A stretch of DNA of 38,454 nt from Microcaldota archaeon (GTDB taxonomy: Archaea > Micrarchaeota > Micrarchaeia > Micrarchaeales > CABMGC01), in assembly GCA_023256515.1 (NCBI GenBank), contig JAGDYD010000017.1, forward strand, positions 1 to 38,454. Reading direction: 5' to 3'. Numbering within the stretch: position 1 is the stretch's first letter; every line of letters begins with the position of its first letter. The notes under the pieces are model-generated. The model saw nothing but the letters and a program-made list of their open reading frames with translations, was not told the origin of the DNA and did no database searches. This document shows, piece by piece, positions 1,147 through 37,627 of this stretch. A program made the translations under genes and the position numbers.

Positions 1147-2216
1147 TTGCTTTTCGCGGCAAATCGACTCCAGTCGATGCTGCTGGAGGGCACTGCTATC
1201 AGATTTCGACAGCCATGCAAGTTCGCCCAACGGCTTCGTTGAGCGGCGTACGGCTCAGTAACGCGTAGTCAACCTAATGTAAGGAGGGGGATAACCTCGG
1301 GAAACTGAGGATAATACCCCATAGGCTAGGGATCCTGGAAGGGGCCTTAGCCGAAAGGTACGCAAATTGCAGCGCAACCACCTTACAATGGGACTGCGTC
1401 GGATCAGGCAGATGGCGGGGTAACGGCCCACCATACCTATGACCCGTAGGGGCTATGGAAGTAGGAGCCCCGAGAAGGGCACTGAGACAAGGGCCCTAGC
1501 GCTACGGCGTGCAGCAGGCGCGAAAACTCCACAATGCGCGAAAGCGTGATGGGGGAAGTCTGAGTGATGCACTTCGGTGCATCTTTTGCCAAGTATAGCA
1601 AGCTTGGCGAATAAGTGCTGGGTAAGACGGGTGGCAGCCGCCACGGTAATACCCGCGGCACAAGTGGTGTCCACGATTATTGGGCTTAAAGCGTCCGTAG
1701 CCGGTTGGAAAAGTCTCATGTGAAATATAGGTGCTTAACGCCTATGCTTGCACGAGATACTATCCGACTAGGGAGTGGGTGAGGTTGGGAGTACTTATAG
1801 GGGAGGGGTTAAATCCTGTAATCCTATAAGGACTACCGGTGGCGAAGGCGCCCAACCAGAACACATCCGACGGTGAGTGACGAAGGCTAGGAGAACGAAT
1901 CGGATTAGATACCCGAGTAGCCCTAGCAGTAAATTATGCAGACTCTGGTGTTGCACTTGCTATGAGCTGGTGCAGTACCGTAGGGAAACTGTTAAGTCTG
2001 CCGCCTGGGGAGTACGGCCGCAAGGTTGAAACTTAAAGCAATTGGCGGGGGAGCACACAAGGGGTGGATGCTACGGTTTAATTGAATCCAACGTCGGAAA
2101 CATTACCTGGAGCGACGGCAAGATGAAGGTCAGGCTAAAGACCTTACCAGATGAGCCGAGAGGTGGTGCATGGCGATCGTCAGTTCGTGGTGTGAACTGT
2201 CCGGTTAAGTCCGGTA

Positions 2217-2705
2217 AGCAATTGAGTGATGCAATGAAAGCGAAACTAAGCAAAGAATTTTGCTATCTTGCCGGCCTTTCGAGGCTGAGCAAGGAAGAGA
2301 AGTCTAAGGTAAGCGCAAAGAGCGAGATAAAGGAGATAATAGAGAGATTCGTGGAAATAGCAGTAAAGCTCGGCGTAGAGCCGAGGAAGATAGTCGTGGA
2401 AGAGAATGAAACATTTTTCTACCATTCCAAGATAGCTAGACAGATAAGAAAAATAAGGGAAAATGAGATAAAAGTATTCAGGCACAGAAACGAGTTGTCA
2501 TCTAGCTACATAGCTGGCATATTCGATGCGAGAGGGAGCATAAGGTCAAAGAGCGTGGAGATTTCTTCAATGAAGCCAAGCGAGGCGATAATGCTGGAGA
2601 ATCTTGGCATGCATGTAAGGGGAAACAGGATTGCAAACATAAGCGAGTTTATCATGCTTATAAAAGGCTATAGTCTTCGCATAGAGCTCATTCAATTGCC
2701 CGGTA
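2217..2705 (+). other. archaeal-type (BHB) intron in 16S rRNA
   Basis: Interrupts the conserved GTTAAGTCCGGTAA/CGAACGAGACCC segment (E. coli about 1093-1102). CCGGTAA is repeated at both ends (2211-2217, 2700-2706). CCGG/CCGG core with TAA bulges, closed inside by GCAATTGA/TCAATTGC. Length 489 nt. Confidence 0.9.
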
Positions 2706-2725
2706 ACGAACGAGACCCTCGCTGA
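2234..2725 (+). CDS. LAGLIDADG-type intron-encoded protein (homing endonuclease/maturase-like)
   Basis: Intron ORF MKAKLSKEFCYLAGLSRLSKEEK...SSYIAGIFDARGSI...FIMLIKGYSLRIELI with two LAGLIDADG-like motifs. ATG at 2234 preceded by GTGAT. Frame stays open past the intron end and stops in 16S exon 2. Confidence 0.8.
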   Translation: MKAKLSKEFCYLAGLSRLSKEEKSKVSAKSEIKEIIERFVEIAVKLGVEPRKIVVEENETFFYHSKIARQIRKIRENEIKVFRHRNELSSSYIAGIFDARGSIRSKSVEISSMKPSEAIMLENLGMHVRGNRIANISEFIMLIKGYSLRIELIQLPGNERDPR

Positions 2726-3158
2726 CAGTTGCTACAGGTCTAGCGATAGATCTGGCACTCTGTTGGGACCGCCTCTGTTTAAAGAGGAGGAAGGAGAGGG
2801 CGACGGTACGTCAGTATGCCCCGAATCTCCAGGGCTACACGCGGCATACAAAGGTTGGTACAATGGGTTGCAACTCCGAAAGGAGAAGCTAATCCCCTAA
2901 AACCAACCGAAGTTCGGATTGAGGGCTGGAACTCGCCCTCATGAAGCTGGAATCCCTAGTAATCGCTTGTCACTATCGAGCGGTGAATATGTCCCCGCTC
3001 CTTGCACACACTGCCTGTCAGGTCATCCAAATGGGGTGCTAGTGAGGCGGCATCTTCATGGTGCTGTCGAACTAATATTCCGTGAGGAGGGCCAAGTCAT
3101 AACAAGGTATCCGTAGGGGAACCTGCGGATAGATCACCTCAATTATTAGTGTGCAAAG

Positions 3159-5918: not shown

Positions 5919-6035
5919 TGCCAAACGGCCATAGGAGCAGGGTAACGCCCGATCCCTTACCGAACTCGGAAGCTAAGCCTGCTCACGATATGAAATACTG
6001 CCCAATAGGGTGGGAAAGCATATTGCTGTTTGGCA
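5919..6035 (+). rRNA. rrf: 5S ribosomal RNA
   Basis: Terminal stem TGCCAAAC/GTTTGGCA, internal ACCGAACTCGGAAGCTAAGCC, about 117 nt. Confidence 0.95.
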
Positions 6036-36590: not shown

Positions 36591-36693
36591 TGCAGGGGGA
36601 GAGATTTGAACTCTCGAAGGCGCTAAGCCACAGGATCTTAAGTCCTGCGCATTTTTCTGTGGCTAATGCCAGACCAGACTCTGCCACCCCTGC
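36591..36693 (-). tRNA. tRNA-Leu(UAA) with predicted 19-nt D-loop intron (36654-36672)
   Basis: Acceptor GCAGGGG/CCCCTGC, anticodon arm CAGGA-CTTAAGA-TCCTG, T arm GAGAG-TTCAAAT-CTCTC, long variable arm; extra sequence in the D-loop folds as a BHB. Confidence 0.9.
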
Positions 36694-37428
36694 CTAAGCA
36701 TACATAGATGGTCCGGTAGCATCGGTCGCCTTTTTGTAGCTTTCATGGGATAGATTTGCCTTCTTTACCATTTGCCTTATCTTTGCTTCTACGAGCTTTG
36801 CTTCTTTGTCCAATTCCTTAAGGTCTATGTTTATATCTATTATCTTGTTAAGGCCTGAGAGAGCTATTTCTGCATATTTTGGATCTGTCATTTCAGGATT
36901 TACTTCAACAAGTAGATTTGCTATTGGTATATCTAATACTGTGCTGTTTGCCAATATTATTGCGCTAACTCCAGCCACTACTCCATCGCCTATAGGCTTT
37001 ATTCCATTGGCCAAAGCCTTTGACAAAAGTGTTTTATCTGTACTTACTATAAATGCATCTTCGCTTGGCTTCTCTACAGGTATGCCGCCTATTGATATAA
37101 TCCTCTTTATTCCCATCTTTCTAACGAAATCCATTATCTCAATTCCAAGCTCATGAACAAGCTCCGTCTGTATTGTAAATTCAGCTATCATTGCAATGAG
37201 CTTGTTCTTCTTGTCAGCATAAATTCTAACAGGGAACATAGGAACTGAATTGTGTATTACTGCTATTGGTGGAAATGACTCGCTGTCTATGTAGCCAATA
37301 TATTCCATATTTAGCTTTTCTATCATGTAGCTGTTGGCCATTGAGCCCACTAGTCCTGCCCCTGGAAATCCTTCTATAAGCGTGTATCCTTCGAGGTCTA
37401 TATCCTTGAATAGTCTTATTTCTATCAT
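36694..37428 (-). CDS. PAC2 (proteasome assembly chaperone-like) family protein
   Basis: LIEGFPGAGLVGSMANSYMIEKL..., IISIGGIPVE; start at ATG 37428 after GTGAT-N3. Confidence 0.88.
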   Translation of the reverse strand: MIEIRLFKDIDLEGYTLIEGFPGAGLVGSMANSYMIEKLNMEYIGYIDSESFPPIAVIHNSVPMFPVRIYADKKNKLIAMIAEFTIQTELVHELGIEIMDFVRKMGIKRIISIGGIPVEKPSEDAFIVSTDKTLLSKALANGIKPIGDGVVAGVSAIILANSTVLDIPIANLLVEVNPEMTDPKYAEIALSGLNKIIDINIDLKELDKEAKLVEAKIRQMVKKANLSHESYKKATDATGPSMYA

Positions 37429-37627
37429 AGAATCACAACTAGTTAGTTGTTGAATTAAAATATTAAATATCTTTGTTTGCATCTGCTGCTTTATTTTTAT
37501 AAAAGCGAGCTGTAAAAATAGGATTTCAATGGGGTAATGCTACATTTCATAGCTATTTATTGTCCTCTCGATTTTTCGACGATTAATTTATAAATCTATG
37601 TACTCTCATTAATATCGGGGTGAATTA

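Follow-up and report, generated by a model that had tools for sequence, protein, structure and literature searches.

A tRNA-Leu(UAA) gene with a probable 17-nt D-loop intron conserved across an order of Micrarchaeota

The D-loop of a tRNA-Leu(UAA) gene in a Micrarchaeota archaeon is interrupted by an extra stem-loop, which raises the question of whether this stem-loop is spliced out, and at which sites, or stays in the mature tRNA. The gene lies in the window, the whole stretch of 38,454 nt that was analysed, and belongs to an assembly of 0.68 Mb in 49 contigs (~87% complete). It encodes a class II tRNA with the acceptor stem GCAGGGG/CCCCTGC, anticodon TAA, a long variable arm and discriminator A, and all exonic stems are intact (Table 1). 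The D-loop contains ...GTCTGGTC TGGC ATTA GCCA CAGA AAAATGCG. From this sequence and from the comparisons below, the gene very probably encodes a precursor with a 17-nt protein-spliced archaeal D-loop intron, which would be cut by EndA and joined by RtcB. Common search tools do not find the gene. ARAGORN called no tRNA in the window and missed it, and the Rfam tRNA model gave only a partial, sub-threshold match of 23 bits. This suggests that Micrarchaeota genomes may appear to be without tRNA-Leu(UAA). We also used a Leu model trained on the five Leu tRNAs of the genome, including this gene with 19 nt spliced out. It matched the gene from end to end with 90 bits, a score that is not independent because of that training sequence. 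The model left an excess of 17 nt between GGUC and UGCG, although the 19-nt-spliced form had been in its training set. Directly upstream, the stop codon of a PAC2-family gene abuts G1 of the tRNA (36693/36694) with no spacer, so that the tRNA promoter must lie inside the PAC2-family gene, or the two are co-transcribed.

Table 1. Positions in the window of the tRNA-Leu(UAA) gene, its parts and its upstream neighbour
Feature	Position	Strand	Remark
tRNA-Leu(UAA) precursor gene, including intron	36591..36693	(-)	G1 = 36693, discriminator A73 = 36591; no encoded CCA
5' exon, G1 to C20a	36672..36693	(-)	ends ...TCTGGTC; placed against intron-less D-loops GGTCAAAYGCG
Intron, 17 nt, between 20a and 20b	36655..36671	(-)	TGGCATTAGCCACAGAA; best-supported boundaries
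3' exon, A20b to A73	36591..36654	(-)	starts AAATGCG...; placed against intron-less D-loops
Anticodon UAA	36638..36640	(-)	uninterrupted 7-nt loop
Core helix, exon strand TCTG (positions 16, 17, 17a, 18)	36675..36678	(-)	pairs with 36656-36659
Core helix, intron strand CAGA	36656..36659	(-)	
Core in the 17-nt register, CTGG/ACAG	36674-36677 / 36657-36660	(-)	G19.A pair
Inner helix, 5' strand TGGC	36668..36671	(-)	
Inner helix, 3' strand GCCA	36660..36663	(-)	
Intron terminal loop ATTA	36664..36667	(-)	3 to 18 nt and unconserved among relatives
PAC2-family gene, directly upstream of the tRNA	36694..37482	(-)	

Folding of the whole precursor revealed the helices expected of an archaeal intron. 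The minimum free energy (MFE) structure has the core TCTG/CAGA, a 3-nt 5' bulge and the inner helix TGGC/GCCA capped by ATTA, and the D-stem closes beyond a 3 x 4 nt internal loop (z = -3.4; 0/200 shuffles were equally stable). The preliminary description had drawn this core with 3-nt bulges GTC and AAA and the hairpin TGGC-ATTA-GCCA, and it appears so in the MFE; the letters and coordinates of the gene and the uninterrupted anticodon loop had also been given correctly. The gene is on the minus strand, and its anticodon loop has 7 nt (UAA at 36640-36638). When whole precursors of relatives were folded, the exact structure was the MFE in only 56/108. Such folds are too noisy alone, so D-arms were also folded by themselves, with shuffled inserts as the control: 95/107 distinct orthologous D-arms formed the helices, compared with 1/1070 insert-shuffled ones. 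The D-loop helices are far beyond chance. Among 105 distinct introns of relatives, C17-G, G18-C and the inner G-C pairs are formed in all 105. The third core pair is T-A (62), T-G (39) or C-G (4) and is never broken, and the innermost pair of the inner helix is C-G (95), T-G (7), T-A (2) or C.A (1). Because this variation is mostly one-sided (T-G), it is kept pairing and the shuffle control that carry the case, rather than numerous compensatory changes. No sequence is conserved in the terminal loop, whose length varies between 3 and 18 nt. The computed fold loses stability when the insert is taken out; this is expected for an unmodified tRNA, so folding energy is no argument for removal. Two bulges flanking a short helix contain the exon-intron boundaries, in a relaxed, HBh'-like form: core, 5' bulge and inner helix are clear, and the distant D-stem alone serves as outer helix. 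The strict hBHBh' class has a 4-bp Watson-Crick core and an adjacent outer helix. The adjacent helix is absent here and the outer core pair T16-A (U16-A) is C.A in 30/105 distinct introns, which excludes the strict class but not the relaxed one.

The element is shared widely by relatives. The intron is not a one-off: the idea of a form confined to one genome was rejected, as the conserved form occurs in 140/165 genomes of the order (two families). It occurs in 0/137 genomes of 26 other families, and a reversed-pattern control gave 0 matches over the phylum sample. Several of the 25 negatives in the order are incomplete assemblies or pattern variants, such as G042, in which the intron is visible. 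Direct reading of the closest 60 genomes gave 57 interrupted Leu(UAA) genes and one uninterrupted gene (G040). The uninterrupted form was found in this single genome of the order and in 18 outside it. Species records with the same element are Micrarchaeota, including ARM-1 (AP024486) and Micrarchaeum sp. A_DKE, and the intron is also present in genome CP060530 of Ca. Micrarchaeum harzensis (locus L180), which grows in co-culture (PMC8975820); the Marsarchaeota labels on some element-bearing records are taken to be those of mislabelled bins. Gene order is also kept in many relatives, with the PAC2-family gene followed by tRNA-Leu(UAA), and the PAC2-family C-terminal motif lies just upstream of the tRNA in 55/121 distinct cases. 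Distribution and gene order fit vertical inheritance from the ancestor of the order. Some genomes also contain truncated copies of tRNA-Leu(UAA) that start at the anticodon loop and comprise just the 3' half (L086, G001:C29:11655; L077, G033:C23; L114, G027:C24). The copy in G001 lies 1.5 kb downstream of the complete gene. These copies look like attachment sites left by integrated elements.

Outside the order, Leu(UAA) D-loops are mostly uninterrupted, often with an apparent 37/38 intron instead. A pattern with a longer gap, for a further intron between anticodon and T-arm of Leu(UAA), found none in the order. The proposal of D-loop introns restricted to this order was also rejected, since other, longer D-arm introns are present in L300 (G113), L301 (G116) and L315 (G142), and probable ones or breaks in L289 (G089), L291 (G093) and L314 (G140). 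This suggests repeated insertion into the Leu(UAA) D-arm in other Micrarchaeota families. Judged from these sequences, D-arm introns recur in the phylum, and the conserved one is typical of the order. Tiny introns are also found in other tRNA genes of the same genome (loci L020, L021, L019, L014 and L010): 12 nt in the T-loop of Leu(CAA), 13 nt in the T-loop of Arg(UCU), 12 nt at 37/38 of Leu(GAG), and short introns in two genes taken to be Ile(GAU) and Thr(GGU), the latter of which ARAGORN called Tyr. With such a genome-wide habit of tiny introns, one in a D-loop is unsurprising.

Where is the intron cut? We read about 62 intron-less D-loops directly. In other Micrarchaeota, intron-less Leu(UAA) genes mostly carry GGTCAAAYGCG or GGAAAAYGCG, that is, mainly GTCAAAYGCG and in a minority GAAAAYGNG. 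The length from G19 to G26 in 62 such genes is 10 nt (53 genes), 9 nt (8) or 8 nt (1). The interrupted genes also fall into two classes, one with a GTC/GTT bulge followed by AAA+N and one with a GAA bulge followed by AAA alone, and these match the two intron-less length classes. With a cut after the third bulge base and after CRGAA, 102 genes have 10 nt and 22 have 9 nt. This 17-nt-type cut reproduces both intron-less forms; from the rarer GAA-type intron, which lacks one A, it yields GGAAAAYGCG, a sequence that also occurs in intron-less genes. In the gene of the window, removal of 17 nt gives GGTCAAATGCG, identical to intron-less genes, and restores a standard cloverleaf. The outgroup genome G142 provides a further comparison. 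Its different D-loop intron sits at the same junction and has a fully paired core CTGG/CCAG with the usual +2/+2 spacing, and the same spacing applied to the core CTGG/ACAG of the window leads to 36655-36671. The boundaries are therefore probably at 36655-36671, which places a 17-nt intron between C20a and A20b.

The preliminary description had proposed excision of 19 nt (36654-36672), with the cut between positions 20 and 21 and the joined D-loop AGUCUGGUAAUGCG. This alternative follows from the NN|N cut rule, which gives exactly these sites on the Watson-Crick core TCTG/CAGA with bulges GTC and AAA of the MFE. Elsewhere in this genome, that rule yields proper loops when it is applied to Leu(GAG), with its 37/38 intron, and to Leu(CAA) and Arg(UCU), with their T-loop introns. 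However, in the D-loop it leaves 8 and 7 nt between G19 and G26, 2 nt too short against the 10 or 9 nt of 61/62 intron-less genes. The product sequences match in just 6/124 genes, compared with 54/124 for the 17-nt cut, GAA-type introns would keep only 2 nt between G19 and base 23, and the outer core pair T16-A is C.A in 30/105 distinct introns. A 19-nt excision is thus unlikely. Of the original proposal, the relaxed bulge-helix-bulge (BHB) intron in the D-loop stands, and its length and position at 20/21 give way to the likelier 17 nt.

The genome encodes enzymes that could remove such an intron. It has one splicing-endonuclease gene of 395 codons, with two PF01974 matches within one frame. 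The protein aligns over the whole chain (12-394 to 7-387) with the epsilon2 enzyme of ARMAN-2 (PDB 4fz2; E = 1e-151). Counted along this alignment, the catalytic residues Y236, H251 and K282 and the ASL lysine K161 are conserved; the roles of these residues have been described (PMC6379350). EndA therefore has the features of an epsilon2-type endonuclease, with alphaN-alpha-betaC units in a single chain, the catalytic triad and the ASL lysine. As a full-length homologue of the endonuclease of ARMAN-2 (Ca. Micrarchaeum acidiphilum; PDB 4fz2, 9w2k), it shares the catalytic and ASL residues, and no function-relevant difference was seen. Enzymes of the epsilon2 class have broad specificity (PMC6379350, PMC12397907), and an RtcB ligase is encoded in the same genome, so that a relaxed-motif endonuclease and RtcB occur together. 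An endonuclease tolerating relaxed BHBs had been predicted from the DNA, and typing of the enzyme, as then proposed, gave an ARMAN-2-like epsilon2 form. A homologue of this endonuclease is present in 287/302 Micrarchaeota genomes, including outgroup families without this intron, which indicates that the enzyme is older than the intron. In the proposed mechanism, the intron would fold a small hairpin of its own and, through its 3' portion, base-pair with exon bases 17-18 (with 16 or 19), forming a relaxed BHB with only the distant D-stem as outer helix. The homodimeric epsilon2 endonuclease would recognise this motif and cut in both bulges, each time two bases past the core helix (after C20a on one strand and after ...CAGAA on the other), and release the 17-nt intron. 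RtcB would then join the exons to the standard Leu D-loop AGUCUGGUCAAAUGCG. We infer cleavage and ligation from what is established about such enzymes, and the cut sites in vivo are likewise predicted.

Without splicing, the mature tRNA would keep the stem-loop and have a large, structured D-loop. Inheritance of the element across an order and its strongly conserved arms speak for such retention. The preliminary description had named an unspliced, equally enlarged D-loop in relatives as evidence against an intron; at the DNA level, relatives do share the element, but the pattern is not that of an unspliced loop. The terminal loop drifts freely in sequence and length, G040 has the uninterrupted form, and the insert is absent from most outgroup Leu(UAA) genes and from the four other Leu isoacceptors of the genome, which carry the ordinary D-loop YTGGTCAAACGCG (GGTCAAACGCG). 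On excision, the exons would always join to a standard D-loop. These observations point to an intron. Moreover, a competent, broad-specificity EndA and RtcB are encoded in the genome, and the comparable T-loop and 37/38 inserts of other tRNA genes in it are hardly anything but introns. Retention in the mature tRNA is therefore very unlikely. That the gene is a decayed pseudogene with a functional copy elsewhere is hardly credible: a second copy could be missing from an incomplete assembly, but all exonic stems are intact, and in nearly all relatives, near-complete genomes included, no full Leu(UAA) gene other than this interrupted one was found.

Conservation of the intron arms exceeds that of the terminal loop and what splicing by itself would plainly demand. 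Seven bases of complementarity link the 3' arm GCCACRG to the exon sequence CYGTGGC, which belongs to the 3' strand of the anticodon stem and the variable arm. Where the stem has CCCG, the variable intron letter is G in 15/15 cases; A is confined to stems with CCTG or CTTG (Fisher p ~1e-7, uncorrected for shared ancestry). An alternative precursor fold through GCCACRG/CYGTGGC could order splicing, modification or maturation. The association may also be due entirely to shared ancestry or base composition. That the intron was kept across the order because of a function besides splicing seems quite improbable.

Descriptions of non-canonical tRNA introns mostly present them as scattered, with rapid gain or loss. 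The minimal D-loop intron described here has been passed on across an order, of which 165 genomes were sampled; one member has the uninterrupted form, and outgroups show the pre-insertion sequence. This provides a clean natural test of how an epsilon2 endonuclease recognises a relaxed BHB and chooses the cut site. The kind of intron is known. Archaeal D-loop introns, relaxed motifs, multiple-intron tRNAs in ARMAN-1/-2 and the epsilon2 enzyme that cuts relaxed motifs have been reviewed (PMC6379350, PMC4033280, PMC12397907). The relaxed-BHB introns of Thermoproteales, Nanoarchaeum and ARMAN-1/2 (hBH, HBh', BHL) are likewise short inserts outside 37/38, in genomes that encode a broad-specificity endonuclease. 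In contrast to these, we describe one D-loop intron of one tRNA whose helices are nearly unchanged across an order, whose core is short (3 Watson-Crick/wobble pairs plus U-A or G.A), and whose outer helix is set off by a 3 x 4 internal loop. In the literature on Micrarchaeota tRNA introns we found no description of it, and it may have been listed earlier for ARMAN-1/2; order-wide retention with nearly fixed arms was not found described. The group I intron of cyanobacterial and plastid tRNA-Leu(UAA) is also an old, vertically inherited intron of the same isoacceptor (PMC4033280), but it is large, self-splicing and in the anticodon loop, whereas the intron here has 17 nt, is presumably protein-spliced and lies in the D-loop.

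The window also contains rRNA genes. A 5S rRNA gene stands alone at 5921-6034 and no 23S rRNA gene was found within the window, which suggests that the rRNA genes are unlinked or that 23S lies elsewhere. The 16S rRNA gene (1167-3142) is interrupted by ~490 nt near position 1034 of the archaeal model. This insert, at roughly 2210-2700, overlaps an ORF (2042-2725) with weak homing-endonuclease/LAGLIDADG resemblance below Pfam cut-offs and the motif SYIAGIFDARGSI.
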